In this document: positions 900-35,354 of the stretch, in pieces
Layout of the letters: every line of letters begins with the position of its first letter
Position numbering within the stretch: position 1 is the stretch's first letter
DNA from: a virus
Reading direction: 5' to 3' (one strand)
IMG/VR virus record: IMGVR_UViG_3300030108_001372
Location: 1 to 36,134 of that record
Length of the DNA stretch: 36,134 bases
Notes under the pieces: generated by a model
What the model was told of the DNA's origin: nothing
Database searches by the model: none
The model's input: only the letters and a program-made list of their open reading frames with translations
Program-made: the position numbers and the translations under genes

Positions 900-1558
900 A
901 TCAAGAAACAAAATCAAGGTTGGTTGCTGCTGGCAAGTGGGAGCAGTACAACGACCTGAAATACAAGTACATCAACGAGGGTTTGGACAAAAAAGTGGCC
1001 GAACAGAAGGCGTTGATGGACGTAGATCGGCCACACGCGAAGGGTGGCGACCCGTACAAACGACTGGTGCAGGCTGTGCCGCAGGGGCATTGCTCTGAGC
1101 GTGAGGCCGCACAGTTTGTTTTTGAGCATGTGTCTGTACCAGCAGCAGAGATAGAGGCGTCAGCGGTCCCTAGCCGTGGCGCTGTTGGCTTGCTGAAGTG
1201 GGTACAGTCATCTCCCGCAAACCAAACTGCTTTCTACGCCACCATTTGGATGAAACTTATGCCGACCAAGAGCCAACTCGATGCAGAGGCTCGCTACTCC
1301 GATGATGGTATTAGGTCAATCGAACTACTCGACCGTCTGGAGCAAATGCTTGGCGACGAAGAGGAAGACATGCAGGGTGTGCGGGAAGAATCTGGGCCTA
1401 GCCAAGTTCAACAAGAACAAGGCAGGACGCCGGACGGAATGCAAATCATGTCAAGCGATGCTGCAACTCAAGAGGAAATACGGCCTGACCCCTCTGGAGT
1501 TCATGGAGATGTACGAACAACAGTTAGGGTTAGACCCGATTACACTGACACCACTTGA
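896..1558 (+). CDS. Candidate terminase small subunit (220 aa; last third questionable)
   Basis: GTG at 896 overlaps the previous TGA (GTGA). About the first 155 residues look like a genuine soluble protein: a helical start (KSRLVAAGKWEQYNDLKYKY), a middle domain, and an acidic end near MLGDEEEDMQ. Position directly before endonuclease VII and the large terminase suggests the small terminase, which recognises phage DNA for packaging; sequence alone does not prove this. From about 1350 the same bases also encode the endonuclease VII in the +1 frame, and the last 65 or so residues here (rich in Q, P, R, T) look like an out-of-frame reading. Either the true protein ends earlier and a base error extends it, or the two genes really overlap by about 200 bases, or a frameshift joins them. 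Confidence 0.65.
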   Translation: MNQETKSRLVAAGKWEQYNDLKYKYINEGLDKKVAEQKALMDVDRPHAKGGDPYKRLVQAVPQGHCSEREAAQFVFEHVSVPAAEIEASAVPSRGAVGLLKWVQSSPANQTAFYATIWMKLMPTKSQLDAEARYSDDGIRSIELLDRLEQMLGDEEEDMQGVREESGPSQVQQEQGRTPDGMQIMSSDAATQEEIRPDPSGVHGDVRTTVRVRPDYTDTT

Positions 1559-1730
1559 ACTAGGCAAGATTTGTGTAGATCATTGCCACAGAACTGGTCG
1601 TATACGCGGTTTGTTGTCCCGATCGACCAACGCAGCAATAGGACAACTGATGGATTCGCAGCACGTGATGTACCGTGCAATGCAATACTTAAGCAATGAC
1701 AGCCCTTTTGGGAAGAAAAGTACCAACTGA
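1350..1730 (+). CDS. Endonuclease VII-type (His-Me finger) nuclease
   Basis: Start inferred as TTG at 1350, with GGAG about eight bases upstream; no in-frame ATG gives a sensible N-terminus. The 126-residue product has CRVC (8-11) and CKSC (31-34), the KYGLTPLEF helix start (43-51), the catalytic motif VDHCHRTGRIRGLL (76-89) and N94, all hallmarks of the recombination endonuclease VII family, which cuts branched DNA. The second CxxC pair of the family, one before the DH motif and one after RGLL, is replaced (LGLDPITL and SRSTN). A position between small and large terminase fits the HNH-type nucleases that assist cutting during packaging. It overlaps the upstream gene by about 209 bases and the large terminase by 35. 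Confidence 0.8.
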   Translation: MATKRKTCRVCGKNLGLAKFNKNKAGRRTECKSCQAMLQLKRKYGLTPLEFMEMYEQQLGLDPITLTPLELGKICVDHCHRTGRIRGLLSRSTNAAIGQLMDSQHVMYRAMQYLSNDSPFGKKSTN

Positions 1731-17650: not shown

Positions 17651-18996
17651 GCAGGGTTATACGTCCTGAGAAATTGGACTACAACACGTTTGGCACATCA
17701 CGTCCAGCCAGTAACACAGAAATGCCAATGGATCTCCCTAGTGATATGGGAAGTCTTATTGACAACCAAGTGTATCGGACAGAAGCGGGTAAGTTCGGAC
17801 GCTTCAGCGCTGAAACTGGGCAGGTAGTCCCATCGATTTTCGATATCGATAGAGACAGGTTTGTTGCCGAAGAGTACAAGACACCTGCGGGTTTTGCTGC
17901 AATTGGCAGACGTTTAATTAGCGGTGTTGCAGACCTCAATAAATACGCTTTGGATACCGGCGACCAGAACGTGCTTGCCGAAGCACAAAAGATGCAGCGT
18001 GACATCGACGCAATCGACGCTTCAGACCTGCGTCCGGAAGAACGGGATCGCGCGCTGATTGCCGTGTACGAAAGAAGCAGGGGCTTCTTTGACTTGATTG
18101 ATACTGCTCGCGTTCAAACCGCACAAGACAGGTTGGTGCAGGAGGCACAGAAAGCAGATCAAGAACTACAGGTTGCTGAGTACAAAATGCAAGAGGCAAT
18201 CACACAGGCAAACGAAAGCCTCTTCAAACAAGAAGACGGTGCCCCGTTGTTTGGAGATGCGGTTGACTACACCATCCCAGACGAAGACATTGAAAACGCT
18301 TACAGGGCAATGATGTCCAAAGAGGACGCATACACCAAGGCTTTTGATGAGTCGTACGCAGAAAGCGATGACCCGATAGCAGCCCACGCCGATGCGTTTG
18401 TGAAAGCAGGATTGGGCACAAGGCAAGAAGCCATGACCAAAACGCGAGGCGAGTTGTTTCTTGACCGACAAAGTTTTGAGGAAAACTATCGGGCAAGAAA
18501 CGGAATGTCTCGTCGTAATGCTCACGCTATGGCACAGATCGGTAAGGCCATTGCATTGACAGAGGCGCGAATTGATGCTGTGGCCCAAGGCCCGCTATCT
18601 GAAGACTCGCATCGTAAGTATGTAGACACATTGGTGAATGCTGGAGTGGCACCGGACGTGGCCAATGCAATGTACTTTGAAAGAACCTTGTACCACCAGT
18701 CAATTATGTTCCGCGAACACAAGAACCTTTCTACCTTGCGACAGCAACGGAATTCAATTGCGTTCTTAGAGGAGCGAGTGGTTGGCGACATTACCAACGC
18801 AGAAGTTATGCAGTTTGCGCAGGCAAGAAACCTTACTCCTGCCGCTGCTTTGGCTATGGTCAAACGCATGTATCTCGATGATCTTCTTGGCACAACGCCG
18901 TACAAGGTTAGAAACAAAAAGAAATTAGAGCAGCGCGTTAGGGAGGGTCAGACCCGAGACTTTACGGGTGGTGGCAACGTACGCGGAGGATTCTGA
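17647..18996 (+). CDS. Helical internal virion protein candidate (449 aa)
   Basis: ATGA overlap with the gene before, TGATG with the giant gene after. The 449 residues are almost entirely charged helices (RDRFVAEEYKTPAGFAAIGR; QDRLVQEAQKADQELQVAEY; RKYVDTLVNAGVAPDVANAM) with no strand-rich domain, no membrane segment and no enzyme motif. It ends in a basic, glycine-rich tail (RDFTGGGNVRGGF). A long helical protein placed immediately before a giant multidomain protein matches the internal (ejection) proteins of short-tailed phages, which leave the head with the DNA. This role is inferred from layout only. Confidence 0.65.
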   Translation: MSRVIRPEKLDYNTFGTSRPASNTEMPMDLPSDMGSLIDNQVYRTEAGKFGRFSAETGQVVPSIFDIDRDRFVAEEYKTPAGFAAIGRRLISGVADLNKYALDTGDQNVLAEAQKMQRDIDAIDASDLRPEERDRALIAVYERSRGFFDLIDTARVQTAQDRLVQEAQKADQELQVAEYKMQEAITQANESLFKQEDGAPLFGDAVDYTIPDEDIENAYRAMMSKEDAYTKAFDESYAESDDPIAAHADAFVKAGLGTRQEAMTKTRGELFLDRQSFEENYRARNGMSRRNAHAMAQIGKAIALTEARIDAVAQGPLSEDSHRKYVDTLVNAGVAPDVANAMYFERTLYHQSIMFREHKNLSTLRQQRNSIAFLEERVVGDITNAEVMQFAQARNLTPAAALAMVKRMYLDDLLGTTPYKVRNKKKLEQRVREGQTRDFTGGGNVRGGF

Positions 18997-21900
18997 TGGC
19001 TGAACCAGAAATTGGTAAAAAGACAGTACAGAAACAAAGAGCGGACGAGGCTGCCCAAGCCATACTTGACAGCGTTCCCGACACCAATTACCAACAGGTA
19101 ATGGAGGCTGCCAACCAAGCGTTTGCGGGTGCTATGAATATGGGTGATGTCCGAGACATTGCACCCAACCTTGCGCAGATGAGAGAGAACTCAATGCGTC
19201 GAGGAATTCTTGACGCACAAGAGGGTTCAGAATATCGCGCTGGTGTTACCAACACTACTGGCAGTTATACCATTGACTACTTTCTCTCAAAGTTGCCCGA
19301 CGTGTTTGGTGGCGACAATGACGAAAACTCGCTAAAAGATCCAGACAGGGCGTACTTTGGCAAAACAGGTACATACTTCCTTGACTCTTTGTTGACTCCA
19401 AGTATCGATGCCCACCCACACCTGTTCCAACTTGGTGGCGCGAGCAGGTACCGACCAGTGCCAGTCAAAGATGAAGAGGGCAATATTGTTCGTGTGGTCA
19501 ACATGCCCCACCGTAAAAAGGTGCTTGCTCAAAACTTTACGGACGGTAAAGAGTCTTTAACACAGGATGAGTATGAGTTACTTGCGGCTGAAGTAAAAAG
19601 CCGTGGTGAAAATATTGAAGACTATCTCGGCGAAGACGTGTTCCGTATGGACGTGCCTTTGGCTGGAGAAGTAAGCGCTCCCCTCAAGATGTTTGACCCA
19701 GATGTTGTGGTAAAGTTTCTTAAGGCTGGCGCTCAAGAAAACCAAGACTTTGTTGATTCTGTAGCCGCTGGCAACCTGCGCCGCAGAATTATCGGTGGAC
19801 AACTAGAAGGTGAAGACGCTCGACGCCTTGAAATGCAAGGCGGGCTGACCGGCCTGCTCGCAGTAAGCCTTAACAAAAATTTACGACCGGCTGCACAGAA
19901 TGTGCAGGCATTCTTTGAAGCAGCAGAACACGGCTTTCACCAAGGCTGGGCTGCGCCACTTGACTTCTTAGGCGACTTGGCTGGCTTTGGGGAACGGTGG
20001 GAGGAACATTCTTTGTTTGCTGGTCTGGATGATGACTGGCACAAGTCCTACCCGGAACTTGTTGATTTTATGGAAGGAACTGACGTTGAGTTTTCTTCTA
20101 TGCTCGGTTCTGCCGCAGGACAAATTGGCGTGCAGGTCTTGGGCGCGAGAGCCTTGCAAGCCTTGCAACTTCCCTCTCGCCTTTCTTTTTACGGACTTGG
20201 CGCAGGATATGCAGGCGGCATTACAAACATCCAGCGAGAGCGTAGATACTTGGCGCAGGGCTTCTCAGCAGAAGATGCAGACCGCATGGCGCAGTACGAC
20301 GGCGTACGTGTTGGCATGTACACCCTTCTGTCTGAATACGTTGTGGGTGGCATGGGCCGGTTTGCAGGAACTCGCTTTGGCGGCAACGTAGGCAAACTCG
20401 TTGACTCTACTGCTGCGTCACGGTTCCTTGGGGCAGGCGTACGTGAAGCCGGTCAGGAAAGTCTCGAAGAAATCTTGCAGCGCGCTTACTTTATGACTGA
20501 GCGTGACGATGCAGAACTGCGCGAGGAGGCTTTCTTTAGTCCAGAGTTTATGGAACAACTGAAGCAAGTTGCTTTGGTTAGTTCTATCGCTGGTGGCGCT
20601 TCTAACGTAGTTACTGATGTGGGCATGGCCGTGAGTGTCAAGCCGCCGAACATTGGTGAGCGTGTAACTTTTTATCAGAATGGTGAGTTGGTTGAGACAA
20701 CTGTCACCAATGATAACCAAGAAGAAATCAGGCAGGGCATTCTCAATGACATGCGCCGAGAGGCTCGGGCCGCACACTACGCACAGCCAATCGGTGGCGA
20801 CTTGGCCGCGCTGGCTATTGACGGCCTCGCCAACGTCACCGCACGTCGCACTCGCAACGGTCTGCGCAAGCGCCTCGAAGCACTGGGCGTACCCGAAAAT
20901 CAGATTGATGGTTATCTCAACACGATGGTCAACCAAGACTCTCCTCGTGTTGCAAGCCTGTTTGGCAACCCAGATGAAGTCATAGCACAACGTCAAGAGG
21001 AGTTCATCGAAGGCGAATCCAAACTTGAGATGCAAACTACATCTCCATTGCTTACAGACTTCTTCAGGTCTTTGCGGTCAAACAACAAGGATGACGCAAT
21101 CAACGTCGCTAAGTCGATGGAGGCTGGACTTGGCAAGAGAGTGCAATTGGCAAACCTGTTGTCACTCATGGACGAGACAGATATCCAGCAGATGCGTGAC
21201 GCCGCAGAAGAATCTGTCTTGCGACATGAAGCAAAAATTCAAGCAGGGGTTGAGGCTTTAATTACACCGCAGGCTGTACCGGAGTTTGCCCAGACCGCTG
21301 TCTTTGATGGCAACTACTCCGATGCCTTTGTGGATCGTATGATTGATGAAATCATTCAGGTGCGCACCGCAGAAGGTGCAGAACTTGAAGCGGCGCAAGC
21401 AGAAGCAGACACCATTCTTGAGCAACTGCTTGCTGGTGAACAAATCAGCAGCCTTGATATGGCAAAGATTGACAAGGCGCTTGGCAATCGGGCCAACACC
21501 GAGCGTGCGCTCGCTCTTATCAAGAATCATTTCAACCCAGAACCGGAGCCGGAAACTGAACAAGAGGGAGAAGAAGCGGATGTGGCCGACGATACGGATG
21601 CGCCACCTTTTTCGAGAAATGCTGCAATCGAAGAGAACCGCCAAACAGTTGCGGAACTTGAAGAAGGCGTAGAGGGTGAGACAACCGAAGAGACGGCGCA
21701 AGAGGCTACGCCGCTTGGATTCCTAACACGCACAAAAAATTACTTGGTGGCCCAAAGTGCAAAGGCTGTGCAAAAGGGTGCCCAAGCCTTTTTCTTACCG
21801 ACTGACACAATCGAATTTGTAAAGAGTGATGGGCTTACTCAAGAGCAGCGTCTCTACAGAGATCGTTTGCGTGAGCAGGGTATCGAAGTTGCATTTGTTG

Positions 21901-24900
21901 CAGGTCGTGCCGAGGATGGGAGCCGAAGGCGGCTTGTTTTCGACGGTTCGATCAATGACGATAATGGCATTATTGTTCTAAACGCAGACGAGGCTATTGG
22001 CACACGACAGTACGACAGCATTGTAAGTCACGAGGTGTATCACGGTGTGATGCAAACTGACAAGTCTTCGGGCATGCGCTTTATGCAGGCTGCACTTGAG
22101 CATGACCGAGACGGCTTGCTTCGATCTTTCGCCAAGGCTTACGGCTTGGAGATGTCTGCGCAGACTGGGCAGAAAGTACGGCTTACAGAAAACGAACTGA
22201 CAAGCCAACTGGTAGACGTACTCAAACTATCTTCTGATCCAGAGTTGCGGACTGGAGAAATCATTGAGGCACGTCGTATTGCAGAAGAGGCGTTTGCCTA
22301 CTACGTCCAAGACATGGCCATGTCTGATCCTGCCAAGACACGGCGGGTTATTGACAGCCTGAACAAAGACAGTCGCAACATCCCGCTTGTTGAGTCGATC
22401 AGCAACACCATTGGCTCTTGGCTTGGCTATATGGATGCCTCGGTAACTGAAGATTCTTGGCAAACCCGTGACCGGTGGGACGCTCTGCACCGTTTGATGA
22501 AGGGCTACGTTAAGTCACAGGGTCAGTTCATGGCACCGGACCCAAACAATCGTGGGTTCTTTGAGCCGTATACCCCGACGCCAACACCTGTTGGTGACTC
22601 ATTTAGTGATGCAATTAGAGAGTTGTTTGACCGCTCTGACCTTGGCATGACCGACATCGAGAAGAGAAGCATGGCCTTGCGAGACGCCATGTACAACCGC
22701 CAGCGCTCCTTGGAACTGACTGCGGCAGAACCTGATGACAGTTTTGACTTGTTGTTCGAGGACATCTTTGGCGAGCCGCGCGGCTATCGAATGCGGCACC
22801 GTCGTATCTCTGACCAGTTTGGCGTCAAGACACCCATGGGTCTTTACAACAATGGGGCCGAGTTGGCTCAGGGCTTTGACCAGAAGATGCGTGAAGACGG
22901 CATCCTTGTTGCACCGTTGTCAGGTGAAGAGATCCGCAAGTACAGAGCAAGAGAGATGGAGTTCTCCGAGGCACTGTATAAAGGCGTTCGGTTCCCGTTT
23001 GGCGAAGACCCCTCGGGCAGCCCAATGTTCTCTCGTGATCCGCTTTCGTTTGAATATCTTGAGGGTGGCGAACGTGGTGCGATTAGGTTTGCTGGCGGTG
23101 AGCCTGTTGATTCAAACGTCAGGGGTATGAACCAGCAGTCTACGCAGCGCACCCAACTACGAAAGTTGGGCTACCGATCTGGTATGGCGATGCTTGGACA
23201 GAAAAAACTTGCAAGTGATATCCTCAAAAATTTTGCAGATCAGGTCATCGAAGATACACCAGATGATGTCTTCCCAAACATTATGGGGAAGGTACGCAAA
23301 GAAAACCAAAGAAGGGGTGTCAGCCTTGATGTTGCCGAAAACGTAATCAAACGATCAACCAACGCACTTATTGACAAGCAAGTCGAATTGGCAAATGGCC
23401 TTTACATGCAGGGGATTGTTGACGCTCAAGAGGCACAAAGAATTGTTTCAGATTCTCTTGATGGCTTCAGGAGATATGAACAGCAGGCTTTGGCTTCGGC
23501 TAAAAACTACATTGGCTTCATTGAGGAAGGTCTTAAAAGAGGGGGGGGAGGCACAGGTGTGACGGCTGAAATGTCAGACTTAAGAAATATTATCAGAGAT
23601 ACCTTTAAAAATTATGGTCAAGACTACGTTGGGGTCACAATGCACGCCCCATTCTTACTTAAGCGGATAGCAGACTCAAAGCAAGTAGATCCCGTCAACA
23701 GGGCAATCGCCTCCACACTGCTCAAGACTTCATCTACGCAACTTGGCGGGGAGATGCAGTACCTTGTTCCAGACCTTATCGGGTCAATCACAACTAGGTT
23801 CTCAGGCATTGGGGGTTATCACGCTCCCCAACTGACTGCGCAGGGTGTTGGTTTTGGTGTAAGTAAATTTAAAGGCGATGGAAAAGAATTTCTTAATGTT
23901 GTACTGCATGAACTTTCGCATGCGAATACATCTCAAACTCTAGCGTCCACTGTCGAGCAAGCGATTGGCGTAAGCGGCATTCTTTCTGACATAGTTTTCT
24001 TCCAAGGTGCGGGCCGAAATGGTCTAAGCGCTGCGTACAGACAAACGCAGGAGTATGCCAACATTGACTCTGTCGAGGAAGCCAAGGCTATAACTCACGA
24101 AGAGCCATCAATTGCATTGGTGAGTGAATTTGACAAAAGATACAAGTCCTCTGGAACATCAGATCAGCAGAAACTTGCACTGTTCAAAATGCGAAACGCT
24201 GCTGCATCTGCAATTGTCGGAGACTTTTTGGCTGTACATTTTGCGGGCGCTTACCTAGATGGCAATACAGAGCAGAAGCAATCCGTTCGGGACTTCATAG
24301 ACGGCATTGATGATTTGTCTGAAATGACACTACGTGACCTTGCTGCGGATTACTTTGCTCAGGATTACGACGACTACCGAGTGTTGGACACCCCTACCTA
24401 CGGACGGGGTGCCACAGGCGTACATAATAGTTACGGCGCTTACACACCTTTTGAACACATCGCTGAATACTTTACAAGTCCCGCGTACGCAAAGCAGGTA
24501 GATAGCACTTTTGCAGCGGTGAACGATCGTCTTGGACTCAAGCCGATAGAGTCTGTAGAGGGTGTGACAGACGTGGCTTCGGCGAGAGATGCTCTGGCTG
24601 CTGTTGATCCTGCCGCACCAGATTTGGTTGCTCCCAAAAAACTTGGTGCCAACTCAAGGCGAATGCAGGAAATCATGGGGCTTATGGCTGCGACCCACCC
24701 GGTTCACCGTGTGTATTTCTCACGCCGCCTAATGGCAGAAACTACACCGGGTGATGCTCTTAAACAGCAGAAGCATTTCATGCTTGGTCTTGGCTACTCC
24801 ACACGTCGCCAGCACGAGATCGAGATGGTCGAGGCAATCAAAGAGGGCTGGTCAAAGATTGGCCGCATGCTTCAGACACCGATTGAATCAACGCGCATGG

Positions 24901-27900
24901 TGCGCGGCTGGTACGAAGGTGACGCAAGCCCCGGCTTCCAAGTATTTGTTGACTCTGAAAACGAGCAGGCTTTGGCAGAGGCAGCAGAGATTATTGGCTA
25001 CGCACTTGACCAAGACGGCGTAGGTATAGTCAAGAGTATTCGTGAATTGGATGAGGATGAAACACCCAGTGGCTTGGTTATCGAGGGTCCAATGTCACGT
25101 CGTGATTTTGAGCGTGTTACTGAAGCAATGAATGATTCCTTCAAAGAGGGCGGGTACAATGACATGACCTCGTTCTCATTCCCCATGGACATTCAGCAGA
25201 AGAAGATGGGTCTTGCCGTCTTCGATCCCGAAATGCGCCAAGCACTCACACCAGAATTGGTGCAAGCAATACAGGAGAAACTAGGAGATGGATACACCGT
25301 CAGACAAGCAGTCATTGAAACCGACTACAAGCCCTCGGGCAAGTTCAACGAGGCCGAGGCATCTGATGCCACACGGCTTGCAGATGATCTACGGTCGAGC
25401 CTCCGGCGGAAGCGGAACGACTTCCTCAAATCCAAAGGCTACGAAGGCCCGTTCTTCTCGCGGAACCACCGGCACTACACCGACATCGGACACTACATCA
25501 ACGACTCCGACCCAGAAGTAGACCTCTACATCTACACCAGAGATACGGACAGGCCACTGAGCGAGGGTGGTGAACTTGATGTTGTTCCGCACGAACAGTT
25601 GAAGATGGCGGATCCACTCTCCATTGACACTATCAAGACAGGGTTCCAACGAGGTAGCCGATTCGACCCCGTAAAGAATGAAGATGCTTACAGATTCCAA
25701 ACACACGCAGACGTGTTTGGCCCCCCGGTCGTGTCTCGCAACGTGTTCTACGCACAAGGTCGGGTCGATCATGGCTCTCGCGAGATCAGCATTTACCCGA
25801 TGTTGACAACTGAGTCCGGCACATTCCAAGGTGAAGATGTTCTGACGCACCACGGTGGTCGTGCTTACCACTTCAGCGCACAGCAACTCGAAGACAAGTT
25901 GACTGCGCGCTATCCGGGCTACACCACCATCTTCTTCTCACGTGGCATTGATGAGGCTGCGGACTTGCAAGGGGATGAGATTTTCTTCTCGCGCAAGGGC
26001 GACGGCTTGGTTGACAAGGTGATGCCATCACTTAAGAAACAGGGTGACAACATCCGCAAGATGTTCCAAAAGTATTTCACTACAGGCCGTGGACTACCGC
26101 AGGGTGCGTTCCGTAGGTACATGCAGCGCAAGGGAACCATCGAAGCCGAGCAGGACCGCGCGGCCAAACGACTCATCGACCTTCGAGATATTGCTGCGCG
26201 AGATGCAGCCAATAGTAAGTTTACGCAACAGGAATTGTTTGACCGCGCGAACACTCTTCTAGGTATCCCGCCTGACATTGTTGATGGCACGTCTATCCAT
26301 GTGACAAGACCACACCCATTAACGTCTGGCATGAGCGCAGAGTTCTTGGCTACTGTTCGATCCATGCGGGAAAGCATTGATGGAATCAGTAGCCGTTTGC
26401 AAACAGAACTCGACCTGCCACCGGGACTCAAGGCAACCATTAAAGACAACCTTGGTCTTTACGTGAACCGATCTTACAAAGCCTTCACAGAACCAGACTG
26501 GTCTGATCGTGTTGAGCCAGAGGTAAGAGACAGGTTCATTGAAGTTGTTGTCTCTGAGATGCGGGGCTTCTTCGAGGCGCAGATTGCCAAAGGCGAGTTG
26601 ACTGAAGACCAGTTGTATTCAAAAGCGAACGTGCTTGTCAACGACATTTTGTACCGTGCCGGTTCAACTAAGTCCCCGATTGCAATGCTTGCAACTATCA
26701 GTGACAAGAGTCCAGAGTCGGCAGCCATCTTCAAGAAGAGGCGACTGAGCAACGACGAGTTCAGCATGGCGTTGAGGTCTTTGCTTGGTGAAGAACTCGA
26801 TGTATTCAAGAACTACACAAACACAATCACCAAGATGTCTTCCGTCTTGGCAAACCATAAGTTGGTACACGATCTAATTACCATCGGAACGGACCCTGAC
26901 CAAGCCGGTGGTGCTTGGATCCGTAAGGTAGAGGACTTGACACCAGAAGAGTCAGCAGAGTATGTACACCTGCACAACAACAACGCATACGAGGCTGCTT
27001 ATCAATTGAACGGATGGGCAGTCAAGCCTGATGTCAAAGATGCGCTTGAGTTCTTGCTTGAGCCAAAGACTGACAACGTCGATGGTTTGATGAAACTTAT
27101 CTACCAAGCCAACTCGCTTACCAAGTATGGCAAGACCATCTTGTCTCCAATCACGCATGTCCGCAACACGGTTGGCAATATCCCGTTCATGGTGTCTGCT
27201 GGTTACTTCACTGGCAACGCAGTTGACATGGACTTCCGTGAGTTTTTCAAGACTGCGGCAGCAGGCAACGACTTGTTTAGTAGCCTGCCACGAAACGCAA
27301 GCGAGGCAGACGTTGCCACTCGTGAGCGTCGGCGAGAAAGATATCGAAGGCTTGTCGAACTTGGGGTTGTGAACTACGGCTTTGAAGTTGAGATCGAGTC
27401 AATGCTTCAAGAGTCGGGAGCCAACGAAACTCTCGGCAACATGCTGACTCGTGTAGGCCGTATTGCAACTGGCCCACAGAGTGTGCTTGGCAAGGTCACT
27501 GAGAAGGCACAGAAAGCGTATTCGTTTGAAGATGACCTGTACAAAGTCATTGCATTTGAGTTGGAGATGGGCAGGCTCAAGCGTGCTTACCCCGGCAGGG
27601 ATGTTGATTCGTTGGAGGCGGAAGCCGCTGAGATCGTTGGCGCTATCTTGCCTAACTACGAAATGGTTCCGGAGGTTATTACCAAACTCCGAAGGATCCC
27701 CTTGCTCGGCACGTTCCCCTCATTTACCGCTGAACTTATCCGGACTCGTGTCGGCTTGATGAAGTTGACTGCCAAAGAACTCAAGAGCAGCAACCCTGAG
27801 ATCCGTGCGGCGGGCAGGTCACGTCTTGCTGGTCAGGCTTTGATGTTTACCTTGCCAACCGCCATGGCTCTAGCGTTCAAGTCAATGGCTGGTATCACGG

Positions 27901-28877
27901 ATGAGGAAGAGAAAGCAGTTCGTAAGATGCTGCCTTTCTGGAACAAGAACTCTACGTTGCTGTTTACCCGTGACGAGAACGGGGAGATCGGATTCATTGA
28001 CTATTCCTACGTTGATCCGTTGGGGTATTTCCGCAAGCCATTCATTGCTTTGCTCAGTGGATCAGAGGAGGGATTCCAGAACTCCCTGCGCAGCGCGATG
28101 CACGCTATCTTTGAGCCGTTCATTGGAGAAGAAGTGTTCTTCGGAGCCGCTTACCAAGCGGTCAAGAACCGTGATTTGAACGGGCGAGTCATTGTTGAAC
28201 CGGGATCCACAACTCTTCAAGCGGTCGCTGCTTTGACTAACCACGTATTCAGTGGTATCGAACCGGGCTTTGTGTCGCAGGGCAAGGAGTTCATCTCTGC
28301 TCTCAACGGTCACGTAAATGACTTTGGCAAGAAGTATCGTTTGGGTGATGTGCTGTTCCAACAACTGACTGGATTCAAGAAGCAAACCATGAACCCCATG
28401 CAGGGTTATATGTTCCGCGTCTACGAGTTCAACCGCAAGGATAGGGAGTTGCGAAGTAGGCTCAACGCTTCTGTTAGACGGGCGGGAACTGTGTCAGAAG
28501 ATGAACTGCGTAGCGCATACACCCGATACAACGACTCCCGTGCCAACTTGCAGGCGGACTTGTTGTCTCTCACATCGGGCATCCGCGCCTTGGGTTACAG
28601 TGAAAAGCAAATCCGTCAGGCATTGAAGTTTGGTTACGTCAATGATGAACTCACCGACAACCTCATCGACGGCAAGTTCACACCGTTTGACATTCCCATG
28701 TCTGCGGTCGAAGGGGCGGTGGACAAGTACATGTTCACCACCCAAGACGTGCCGCTTGGAGAGCCGGGAGAAGCCGAACGCAGAATCCGAGTTCTTGTTG
28801 AAGAGGCGGCAAGTCAGGTCGGATCGCCTCGGGAAATAGGCAAGCCGATTGGCCGTCGAGCAAATCTGGGTAAGTAA
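18996..28877 (+). CDS. Giant multidomain (polyvalent-type) virion protein, 3293 aa
   Basis: One uninterrupted frame of 3293 codons. The N-terminal part (about 1-600) is helical, with hydrophobic Gly/Ala-rich stretches near 395-412 and 528-550 and EAGQESLEEI near 485, as in internal virion proteins. An acidic linker leads to a first zinc-peptidase motif, H1012-E-V-Y-H1016, with E1097/E1098 in AEEAFAYY as a likely third ligand. A second one is H1638-E-L-S-H1642, with E1824 in IAEYFTSP. A mixed region (1900-2330) follows. The C-terminal 800 or so residues (NLGLYVNRSYKAF near 2484, HVRNTVGNIPF near 2720, a hydrophobic helix near 2946-2966, YVDPLGYFRKP near 3005) match what I recall of large polyvalent protein-associated domains (LPD38-like). 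FSR motifs lie between the parts. It is probably packaged in the head and injected, where it may act against host defences; that is inference. Confidence 0.85.
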   Translation: MAEPEIGKKTVQKQRADEAAQAILDSVPDTNYQQVMEAANQAFAGAMNMGDVRDIAPNLAQMRENSMRRGILDAQEGSEYRAGVTNTTGSYTIDYFLSKLPDVFGGDNDENSLKDPDRAYFGKTGTYFLDSLLTPSIDAHPHLFQLGGASRYRPVPVKDEEGNIVRVVNMPHRKKVLAQNFTDGKESLTQDEYELLAAEVKSRGENIEDYLGEDVFRMDVPLAGEVSAPLKMFDPDVVVKFLKAGAQENQDFVDSVAAGNLRRRIIGGQLEGEDARRLEMQGGLTGLLAVSLNKNLRPAAQNVQAFFEAAEHGFHQGWAAPLDFLGDLAGFGERWEEHSLFAGLDDDWHKSYPELVDFMEGTDVEFSSMLGSAAGQIGVQVLGARALQALQLPSRLSFYGLGAGYAGGITNIQRERRYLAQGFSAEDADRMAQYDGVRVGMYTLLSEYVVGGMGRFAGTRFGGNVGKLVDSTAASRFLGAGVREAGQESLEEILQRAYFMTERDDAELREEAFFSPEFMEQLKQVALVSSIAGGASNVVTDVGMAVSVKPPNIGERVTFYQNGELVETTVTNDNQEEIRQGILNDMRREARAAHYAQPIGGDLAALAIDGLANVTARRTRNGLRKRLEALGVPENQIDGYLNTMVNQDSPRVASLFGNPDEVIAQRQEEFIEGESKLEMQTTSPLLTDFFRSLRSNNKDDAINVAKSMEAGLGKRVQLANLLSLMDETDIQQMRDAAEESVLRHEAKIQAGVEALITPQAVPEFAQTAVFDGNYSDAFVDRMIDEIIQVRTAEGAELEAAQAEADTILEQLLAGEQISSLDMAKIDKALGNRANTERALALIKNHFNPEPEPETEQEGEEADVADDTDAPPFSRNAAIEENRQTVAELEEGVEGETTEETAQEATPLGFLTRTKNYLVAQSAKAVQKGAQAFFLPTDTIEFVKSDGLTQEQRLYRDRLREQGIEVAFVAGRAEDGSRRRLVFDGSINDDNGIIVLNADEAIGTRQYDSIVSHEVYHGVMQTDKSSGMRFMQAALEHDRDGLLRSFAKAYGLEMSAQTGQKVRLTENELTSQLVDVLKLSSDPELRTGEIIEARRIAEEAFAYYVQDMAMSDPAKTRRVIDSLNKDSRNIPLVESISNTIGSWLGYMDASVTEDSWQTRDRWDALHRLMKGYVKSQGQFMAPDPNNRGFFEPYTPTPTPVGDSFSDAIRELFDRSDLGMTDIEKRSMALRDAMYNRQRSLELTAAEPDDSFDLLFEDIFGEPRGYRMRHRRISDQFGVKTPMGLYNNGAELAQGFDQKMREDGILVAPLSGEEIRKYRAREMEFSEALYKGVRFPFGEDPSGSPMFSRDPLSFEYLEGGERGAIRFAGGEPVDSNVRGMNQQSTQRTQLRKLGYRSGMAMLGQKKLASDILKNFADQVIEDTPDDVFPNIMGKVRKENQRRGVSLDVAENVIKRSTNALIDKQVELANGLYMQGIVDAQEAQRIVSDSLDGFRRYEQQALASAKNYIGFIEEGLKRGGGGTGVTAEMSDLRNIIRDTFKNYGQDYVGVTMHAPFLLKRIADSKQVDPVNRAIASTLLKTSSTQLGGEMQYLVPDLIGSITTRFSGIGGYHAPQLTAQGVGFGVSKFKGDGKEFLNVVLHELSHANTSQTLASTVEQAIGVSGILSDIVFFQGAGRNGLSAAYRQTQEYANIDSVEEAKAITHEEPSIALVSEFDKRYKSSGTSDQQKLALFKMRNAAASAIVGDFLAVHFAGAYLDGNTEQKQSVRDFIDGIDDLSEMTLRDLAADYFAQDYDDYRVLDTPTYGRGATGVHNSYGAYTPFEHIAEYFTSPAYAKQVDSTFAAVNDRLGLKPIESVEGVTDVASARDALAAVDPAAPDLVAPKKLGANSRRMQEIMGLMAATHPVHRVYFSRRLMAETTPGDALKQQKHFMLGLGYSTRRQHEIEMVEAIKEGWSKIGRMLQTPIESTRMVRGWYEGDASPGFQVFVDSENEQALAEAAEIIGYALDQDGVGIVKSIRELDEDETPSGLVIEGPMSRRDFERVTEAMNDSFKEGGYNDMTSFSFPMDIQQKKMGLAVFDPEMRQALTPELVQAIQEKLGDGYTVRQAVIETDYKPSGKFNEAEASDATRLADDLRSSLRRKRNDFLKSKGYEGPFFSRNHRHYTDIGHYINDSDPEVDLYIYTRDTDRPLSEGGELDVVPHEQLKMADPLSIDTIKTGFQRGSRFDPVKNEDAYRFQTHADVFGPPVVSRNVFYAQGRVDHGSREISIYPMLTTESGTFQGEDVLTHHGGRAYHFSAQQLEDKLTARYPGYTTIFFSRGIDEAADLQGDEIFFSRKGDGLVDKVMPSLKKQGDNIRKMFQKYFTTGRGLPQGAFRRYMQRKGTIEAEQDRAAKRLIDLRDIAARDAANSKFTQQELFDRANTLLGIPPDIVDGTSIHVTRPHPLTSGMSAEFLATVRSMRESIDGISSRLQTELDLPPGLKATIKDNLGLYVNRSYKAFTEPDWSDRVEPEVRDRFIEVVVSEMRGFFEAQIAKGELTEDQLYSKANVLVNDILYRAGSTKSPIAMLATISDKSPESAAIFKKRRLSNDEFSMALRSLLGEELDVFKNYTNTITKMSSVLANHKLVHDLITIGTDPDQAGGAWIRKVEDLTPEESAEYVHLHNNNAYEAAYQLNGWAVKPDVKDALEFLLEPKTDNVDGLMKLIYQANSLTKYGKTILSPITHVRNTVGNIPFMVSAGYFTGNAVDMDFREFFKTAAAGNDLFSSLPRNASEADVATRERRRERYRRLVELGVVNYGFEVEIESMLQESGANETLGNMLTRVGRIATGPQSVLGKVTEKAQKAYSFEDDLYKVIAFELEMGRLKRAYPGRDVDSLEAEAAEIVGAILPNYEMVPEVITKLRRIPLLGTFPSFTAELIRTRVGLMKLTAKELKSSNPEIRAAGRSRLAGQALMFTLPTAMALAFKSMAGITDEEEKAVRKMLPFWNKNSTLLFTRDENGEIGFIDYSYVDPLGYFRKPFIALLSGSEEGFQNSLRSAMHAIFEPFIGEEVFFGAAYQAVKNRDLNGRVIVEPGSTTLQAVAALTNHVFSGIEPGFVSQGKEFISALNGHVNDFGKKYRLGDVLFQQLTGFKKQTMNPMQGYMFRVYEFNRKDRELRSRLNASVRRAGTVSEDELRSAYTRYNDSRANLQADLLSLTSGIRALGYSEKQIRQALKFGYVNDELTDNLIDGKFTPFDIPMSAVEGAVDKYMFTTQDVPLGEPGEAERRIRVLVEEAASQVGSPREIGKPIGRRANLGK
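21600..25994 (+). repeat. Six F-S-R motifs punctuating the giant protein
   Basis: The tripeptide F-S-R, each time after a hydrophobic or proline residue, occurs at residues 872 (APPFSRN), 1345 (SPMFSRD), 1908 (RVYFSRR), 2154 (GPFFSRN), 2314 (TIFFSRG) and 2331 (EIFFSRK). All six are at apparent domain edges, several right after acidic or Gly/Pro-rich linkers. Chance occurrence at this rate with this shared context is unlikely. They may be leftovers of module exchange, protease sites or docking peptides. See findings. Confidence 0.7.
23541..23548 (+). repeat. Eight-G homopolymer inside the giant gene
   Basis: A run of eight G residues follows AAAAGA and codes for part of a four-glycine stretch (G1516-G1519) between helices before the second zinc-peptidase motif. 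Such runs are prone to slippage during replication, transcription, translation and sequencing. A one-base slip would end the protein shortly after residue 1516 and remove the second peptidase and the whole C-terminal half. The frame is intact here. Confidence 0.8.
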
Positions 28878-34372: not shown

Positions 34373-34774
34373 ATGCAGAGAGACAAAGGCAAGCGGGGAG
34401 AACGAGAGGTTGTCCAGATCATGCAGTCTATTGGTTGGATGGAGGCACGCCGTGCCCGCCAATCAGATGGTGCGGTAGATCCAGACGTGGCAGGCTGCGA
34501 CCCCTTGTGGATCGAGGTCAAACGGCGCAAGGGTATTGCAGCGTGCCGGTTCATGGATCAGGCAGAGACAGACGGAAACGAAAAAAAAGATCCCCACCGA
34601 CTCCCGCTTGTGTTTATGCGGGAAGACGGTGGGGAATGGTTGGTCATGCTCAAGGCAGACCAGTTGATTGCTGTTGCTAAACAGTTGATAGATGTCGCTG
34701 ACAAATCTTGCGGACAGTTGAGGGATGCCAGTAGTCACCACGACGAGGGTATCCAGCAGACTCACACTGATTAG
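34373..34774 (+). CDS. PD-(D/E)XK Holliday-junction-resolvase-like nuclease (133 aa)
   Basis: ATG at 34373 is preferred to 34346, which would overlap the previous gene more. The start KGKRGEREVVQIM (G9, E12), D38 in DPDVAGC, and E48-V-K50 in WIEVKRRKG give the complete active site of small resolvases such as Hjc and phage counterparts, which cut four-way junctions made during replication or packaging. The core strand pair EWLVMLKADQLIAVAKQ follows. The last 98 bases overlap, on the opposite strand, the 3' end of the serine recombinase gene; the end region (SSHHDEGIQQTHTD) is not needed for the fold. Confidence 0.78.
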   Translation: MQRDKGKRGEREVVQIMQSIGWMEARRARQSDGAVDPDVAGCDPLWIEVKRRKGIAACRFMDQAETDGNEKKDPHRLPLVFMREDGGEWLVMLKADQLIAVAKQLIDVADKSCGQLRDASSHHDEGIQQTHTD

Positions 34775-35354
34775 CGATGGTCCGATAACCCATGCCATTG
34801 GCACGCATCTGGATGATCGCCTCGATTGCTTGCTGTTCATCAGGGTTGGCAATCGTTTTCTTGGGATTGTCAGGGTCAATCATCAAACCGTACAAGGGCT
34901 GGCGGCTCATCAGTCGCCCGTTGTTTTGGTGTGACTTCATGGCAACGGACGTACGCTTGCCAATGACTCGCCGCTCATACTCAGCAGCAACGTCGAGGAT
35001 CTGCCGGATCATTCGACCTTCAGGTGTGTCATCGACGGCACCACTCTGGACGGCGTGGACATGCGCACCTTTCTTTCGGATTTGACGATGGAAAGATTCA
35101 GCGAGATACACATCACGGGCCAAACGATCGAGGCGATAGACAACCAACGTGTCGCCAGCACGCAAGCAGTCGATGGCTGACCACAACTCGGGCCGGTCAT
35201 CGGATGCGCCGCTCACGTCTGTCTCATAGAACGCACCACGAACGGCGTGTCCATGCTGCTCGCACCACTCAGTGCATTGGGAGATTTGGGTTTCAATAGA
35301 ATCATCCCCGCTGTCAGGGCGGGGAGATACGCGGGCGTAGATCACGGCAGACAT
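34677..35354 (-). CDS. Small serine recombinase (225 aa)
   Basis: ATG at 35354 overlaps the upstream stop (TGATG). The N-terminal catalytic domain is complete: YARVS with R8 and nucleophile S10, ETQISQCTEW (Q23), YRLDRLARD (R74, D76, R77) and the long E helix (MIRQILDVAAEYERRV). The C-terminal 70 residues hold a short form of the Recombinase DNA-binding domain (PLYGLMIDPD; NGMGYRTIANQCESAG; HPSTVRKIC). It is much shorter than large serine integrases but longer than simple invertases, and lacks the zinc ribbon and coiled coil of the former. It may integrate, invert or resolve phage DNA. Its end overlaps the convergent nuclease gene by 98 bases. Confidence 0.9.
   Translation of the reverse strand: MSAVIYARVSPRPDSGDDSIETQISQCTEWCEQHGHAVRGAFYETDVSGASDDRPELWSAIDCLRAGDTLVVYRLDRLARDVYLAESFHRQIRKKGAHVHAVQSGAVDDTPEGRMIRQILDVAAEYERRVIGKRTSVAMKSHQNNGRLMSRQPLYGLMIDPDNPKKTIANPDEQQAIEAIIQMRANGMGYRTIANQCESAGYPRRGDYWHPSTVRKICQRHLSTV

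Follow-up and report, generated by a model that had tools for sequence, protein, structure and literature searches.

Polyvalent proteins of phages and conjugative elements were described by Iyer et al. in 2017 (PMC5512222). The sections of that paper drawn on here describe giant, multidomain, virion-associated chains in which zincin-like motifs accompany a virion region at the C-terminus, include HEXXXH peptidases among their domains, and already propose processing by zincins. Unlike the analysis that follows, those sections give no cleavage site or junction motif; they mention P1 DdrB as reported to be processed to 76 kDa. The N4 virion RNA polymerase, of 3500 aa, is likewise a giant injected multidomain virion protein, and its inter-domain linkers are flexible (PMC12633501). 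In P1 the MCP is cut between E120 and S121 (PMC9024508). Such prohead proteolysis, known for P1 (Pro acting on MCP and DarA) and for SPN3US (gp245), resembles the proposal made below in that internal head proteins are processed during assembly, but differs in that a separate protease acts on capsid and scaffold.

Polyproteins of eukaryotic RNA viruses have short repeated sites at their joints, uniform in any one polyprotein but not from lineage to lineage, and the protease is part of the same chain. For the protein considered here they provide an analogy only, with no homology, and cleavage in our case is a proposal.

The giant gene and its FSR sites

The stretch of DNA analysed (the window, 36,134 nucleotides of IMG/VR record IMGVR_UViG_3300030108_001372) derives from a 44.4 kb virus record. 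Genes for terminase, portal and major head protein are followed by the giant gene and then by exonuclease, helicase and serine-recombinase-type integrase genes. The product is a single chain of 3293 aa, a trait of polyvalent proteins, and its gene lies among those for terminase, portal and capsid. The chain matches phrog_22602, a virion structural protein, over its last 700-odd residues (E 6.6e-45). No Pfam family was matched by the window protein itself; its relatives carry LPD1, LPD5, ART-PolyVal and ddrB-ParB domains, in common with the polyvalent proteins.

Two other frames in the window are noted. A small serine recombinase (34677-35354, minus strand; phrog_95/phrog_125) suggests a temperate or inverting phage. 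A 149-aa frame adjoining the terminase gene (1281-1730, plus strand), with two C-x2-C pairs plus VDHCHRTGRIRGLL, resembles by eye recombination endonuclease VII (HNH). A scan of ten genes in the window showed no prohead protease gene; another 8 kb of the record fall beyond the window.

The initial annotation had noted six FSR tripeptides and two HExxH motifs in the giant frame and read it as a possible self-processing polyprotein. All eight are present, FSR at residues 872, 1345, 1908, 2154, 2314 and 2331, preceded in that order by P, M, Y, F, F and F, with HEVYH at 1012 and HELSH at 1638. The features of the gene, with reference to two homologues (L007 and L090), are as follows.

18996-28877, plus strand: giant polyvalent-type virion protein gene, an open frame of 3293 aa with a C-terminal match to phrog_22602
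18996-21608, plus strand: N-terminal part, residues 1-871, 5′ of the first FSR; about 29% identity to L007
21609-21617, plus strand: FSR site 1, residue 872; FSR at the aligned place in L007 and L090; coil of low pLDDT in the model
21843-22565, plus strand: first zincin-like peptidase region, residues 950-1190, with HEVYH at 22029-22043
23028-23036, plus strand: FSR site 2, residue 1345; FSR in L007; coil in the model
23907-23921, plus strand: second HExxH motif, HELSH, residues 1638-1642; HEYTH in L007 and HELTH in L090 at the equivalent place
24717-24725, plus strand: FSR site 3, residue 1908; FSR in L007, FSK in L090; coil in the model
24726-25454, plus strand: conserved module bounded by FSR sites 3 and 4 (residues 1911-2153), with 43% identity to L007
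25455-25463, plus strand: FSR site 4, residue 2154; FSR in L007; directly past the last helix of the module in the model
25464-25985, plus strand: exchanged module, residues 2157-2330; its place in L007 is taken by about 650 aa that include an ART-PolyVal-like domain
25935-25943, plus strand: FSR site 5, residue 2314; absent at the aligned place of L007
25986-25994, plus strand: FSR site 6, residue 2331, at the start of the conserved C-terminal region; FSR in L007
25986-28877, plus strand: virion region of LPD type at the C-terminus; 54% identity to L007; phrog_22602 match

Is the recurrence of FSR in one long chain worthy of attention? Composition predicts 0.70 occurrences against the six found (Poisson P 9e-5), but once all [FYW]xx tripeptides are allowed about two of 61 shuffles equal the FSR count (p ~0.03), so that the count in the window protein alone is only moderate evidence and insufficient to carry the claim. 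Conservation of the sites is much stronger evidence. The homologue L007/P0002 (3752 aa, open 5′ end) shares 54% of the final 944 residues and 29% of those that precede them. It keeps FSR at five of the six aligned places, whereas only 4.3% of aligned tripeptides overall are retained (P 8e-7), or 6.5% if only those that begin with F or Y are counted (P 7e-6). The permuted tripeptides SFR, RSF, FRS, RFS and SRF display neither excess nor conservation in the window protein. L090, a third and more remote relative, carries FSR or FSK close to 872, 1345, 1908 and the C-terminal junction. In the first peptidase region the H, E and H together with a downstream EE..AYY are invariant in three homologues; a search for further homologues of the peptidase and of the 1908-2154 module matched only the two known contigs. 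The single-protein value of only ~0.03 is the point in favour of a functionless recurrence by chance, an explanation that is refuted by the conservation in L007 (P 8e-7), by the within-protein concordance and by all the population tests given below, and that we find scarcely credible.

Exchange of modules between relatives, known from polyvalent proteins, is also seen here. L007 swaps the 177-residue module between 2154 and 2331 for about 650 residues, FSR flanks both versions and the exchange falls exactly between two FSR sites. The L007 replacement gives a sub-threshold match to ART-PolyVal (E 3.4e-5, 25 bits against 31.2). In Pseudoalteromonas phage Y3 the counterpart of the C-terminal region is a separate gene, 3′ of that for a 3421-aa ddrB-ParB/LPD/ART polyvalent protein. 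A swap at FSR, and alignments that end at FSR, are in keeping with a linker signature of module shuffling, whereby modules would recombine together with a tail peptide and the tripeptide would be a by-product of the module pool circulating in a lineage. Such a signature does not explain why the sites stay conserved as their flanks diverge.

AlphaFold models of residues 860-1360 (pLDDT 44.5) and 1895-2420 (pLDDT 49.5) are both poor. Every FSR lies in coil, with pLDDT below 50, beside folded parts, a placement weakly consistent with exposed linkers. The model of 860-1360, of the same low confidence, presents a helix, three strands, the HEVYH helix and a long helix, which is the zincin order, and Foldseek with this zincin-like region found no significant fold match. 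The module at 1911-2153 was modelled as an alpha/beta domain, for which Foldseek returned no significant match in the PDB.

A tripeptide code at module joints

Polyvalent-type relatives were gathered by scans of viral contigs, for which the LPD1/peptidase region, C-terminal region and ART domain served as queries, and of genomes, queried with the ART domain. FSR stands at 3.8 times expectation in the LPD1 set and at 0.73 times in the remaining large frames of those loci. After dereplication it occurs 101 times against 30.6 expected (3.3-fold) in the HExxH-bearing relatives and nine times against 10.5 in relatives without HExxH, which have fewer modules and hence are not a clean control. The tripeptide is enriched at module boundaries, with 50% of occurrences within five residues of a local-alignment end compared with a baseline of 10.6% and 0-20% for permuted tripeptides. 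In proteins with Pfam domains it is placed about ten residues past the LPD1 and ART ends. FSR is not confined to joints, being found also inside some ART domains (L103 residue 2191, L171).

The peptidase upstream of LPD1 (in L028, L030, L084 and others) often has HEWWHALDNYFSR, with FSR in or directly after the active-site helix and away from any joint. The FSR of HEWWHALDNYFSR inflates simple FSR counts and was left out of the boundary, codon and own-code tests.

The serine of FSR is encoded in the relatives by TCN 42 times and by AGY 43 times. The use of both codon families indicates selection on protein, not DNA: no conserved DNA word underlies the motif, and recombination at such a word is ruled out as the origin of FSR. 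In L219 the six FAPR sites likewise show scrambled synonymous codons, and the lack of any DNA homology kept at the sites also tells against a linker signature. The punctuation by FSR that had been proposed from the window protein is real, conserved and located at module boundaries, but both processing sites and a linker signature predict as much.

FSR proves to be a single form of a wider tripeptide code, which is alike within a protein and differs between proteins. The tripeptide past the ART domain may be FSR, YSR, YSL, FSL, FSV, FAR, FRR, FAPR, HQS, KSA, FQT or others, and YSK is also among the versions in other proteins. The same version is found at unrelated joints, for example six FAPR in L219, four FARG in L062, three FSLK in L246 and four YS[GA]R in L299. 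Away from the anchors and their homologues, proteins contain their own tripeptide 73 times against 33.8 when permuted, with a maximum of 53 and none as high in 5000 permutations; leaving out the FSR/FSK proteins the values are 48 and 19.3. An anchor-free scan, a method of little power, detected a significant repeated [FYW]xx tripeptide in only 18 of 162 proteins, with no link to zincin motifs (16/136 against 2/26).

Two ends that are not homologous allow a more direct comparison. In 16 dereplicated proteins that have both ends, placed by profiles whose last position precedes the tripeptide, the LPD1-end and ART-end tripeptides are exactly the same in six against 1.2 expected (P 2e-4), and their summed similarity is 37/48 against 20.9 (maximum 31 in 10000). 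With 17 proteins, including one pair added by hand, agreement is restricted to offsets 0, +1 and +2 (P 0.002, 0.027 and below 1/3000), with none at the next nine positions. A footprint of three residues fits recognition of those residues and not copying of a linker; the lack of identity extending into the linker is thus a further difficulty for a signature of shuffling. Since the tripeptide varies between proteins and is concordant across non-homologous modules within one, a dedicated recognising factor is favoured. The candidate sites of the relatives in this respect show a polyprotein-like trait, and those of the window protein are all FSR.

Cutting by a host enzyme after injection, also suggested in the initial annotation, would suit sites that the models place in linkers and that have an aromatic-small-basic sequence. 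The code varies by protein rather than by host, however, and elements from one host genus, Comamonas, carry FSR, YSL and YSR. We regard a host protease as very unlikely.

Several other joints are of note. L183 (Cupriavidus pampae) has 13 ART ends in three adjoining frames, all [FY][RAS]R, the third residue constant and the middle one loose, possibly a natural saturation of the code. In L276 and L306 the ART-end tripeptide (RSA and EAR, respectively) is common to separate adjoining frames of one element, as if the code held across genes. The ART joints of L237, L239, L250, L256, L296 and L340 are ILFQ in place of a basic tripeptide. These joints, one or two copies per protein, occur in Treponema, Spirochaetaceae, Bacteroidetes and some viral contigs, and look like the Q-type sites of 3C-like proteases.

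The candidate recogniser

HExxH or HExxxH is present in 77 of the 89 code-bearing proteins, against 6.6 in shuffled sequences. Proteins with similar HExxxH domains tend to have similar codes (r 0.26, P 5e-4), and the correlation holds when the ART, LPD1 or HExxH domain is taken into account; over all proteins there is no correlation with LPD1 or ART similarity. When dereplication is stricter and ranks are correlated, the signal of the HExxxH domain persists at r 0.15-0.18 (P 0.008-0.017), a weaker signal is evident immediately downstream, and N- and C-terminal similarity give none. In 21 proteins with an LPD1-linked HExxH domain and ART, the HExxH-domain similarity also correlates with code (P 0.03). 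The correlations are modest and, because nine regions were examined, we take them as suggesting that the code is tied to the metallopeptidase. That neither LPD1, ART, N-terminal nor C-terminal similarity predicts the code again disfavours the linker signature, which on balance we judge unlikely.

The idea that the code needs HExxH in the same ORF is rejected as stated, for concordance is equally strong in ORFs without the motif (22 against 9.1) and with it (51 against 22). HExxxH is carried by 17 of the 29 concordance-tested ORFs that lack HExxH. No HExxxH domain is found in the window protein, which has two HExxH domains instead, and for that reason we infer its recogniser.

In the HExxxH alignment the column 34 aligned positions before HE holds acidic or long residues with R/K codes and small ones (A, S, T) in others (family-wise P 0.008 for 52 sequences, with no tree correction). 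It may be a specificity residue and is offered as a lead only.

Zincins commonly prefer to cut before an aromatic residue. The free-standing ART proteins of L188 and L195 stop short of the tripeptide, L188 ending ...NPDITK, and such ends would agree with cleavage ahead of the aromatic residue. Concordance is strongest at the third residue, which would suit cleavage past the tripeptide.

The tripeptide might instead be a non-proteolytic tag, a module-end mark bound without cutting by a co-evolving packaging, unfolding or ejection factor or by an intramolecular docking site. Concordance, the three-residue footprint and the linker position are accounted for equally well by such a tag, large phage proteins need packaging and threading out, and P1 DarB has an N-terminal capsid-targeting sequence (PMC9024508). 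It leaves unexplained the tracking of the code with the metallopeptidase domain and the frequency of zincin motifs in code-bearing proteins, and packaging needs no copy at each joint. We consider a tag rather unlikely, if the strongest of the alternatives.

We prefer the explanation that the sites are read by one cognate factor, most likely a metallopeptidase in the chain that would split the modules, and give it an even chance of being correct. A phage polyvalent protein would consist of exchangeable modules on short flexible linkers, every joint would bear a tripeptide of an element-specific code, FSR in the window phage, and one cognate recogniser would read all joints of a protein. That recogniser would most likely be a zincin-like metallopeptidase carried by the polyvalent chain (in the window protein one of its HExxH pair, in many relatives the HExxxH domain), which would cut at the tripeptides and separate the modules during assembly or after injection. 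Equating recognition with cleavage, including which bond is cut and when, is the step that we infer. The N4 virion RNA polymerase is a point against it, having an MPTase domain and yet being packaged as an unprocessed protein according to the sections of Iyer et al. cited here (PMC5512222). Within-protein concordance, the footprint and the HExxxH link all favour a dedicated factor, and to that extent the processing sites first proposed for the window protein gain ground, with the caveat that FSR also occurs off the joints.

Implications for polyvalent proteins

Searches of the literature for FSR in polyvalent proteins and for the strings DIRFSR and PDIRFS were unmatched, an 'FSR motif' in phage appearing only in an unrelated paper. 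As far as the literature searched shows, the junction code and its concordance within proteins have not been described, whilst polyvalent proteins and their proposed processing by zincins were already known. P1 is no help as an experimental anchor because a recurring tripeptide at the joints is missing from its DdrB, DarA and DarB.

Polyvalent proteins may be true self-processing polyproteins, with a three-residue code read by a co-evolving metallopeptidase in the chain and several effectors released from one injected chain. We hold this broader view tentatively, at somewhat less than an even chance. If it is true, the code at the joints permits exchange of modules between elements once the tripeptide has been adapted. 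The open proposal of zincin processing becomes testable in any case, as candidate sites are named, their agreement within a protein is predicted and a peptidase is indicated. If right, module borders could be found in giant phage proteins that domain libraries do not recognise, and the family would provide a large natural set of peptidases paired with their substrates.
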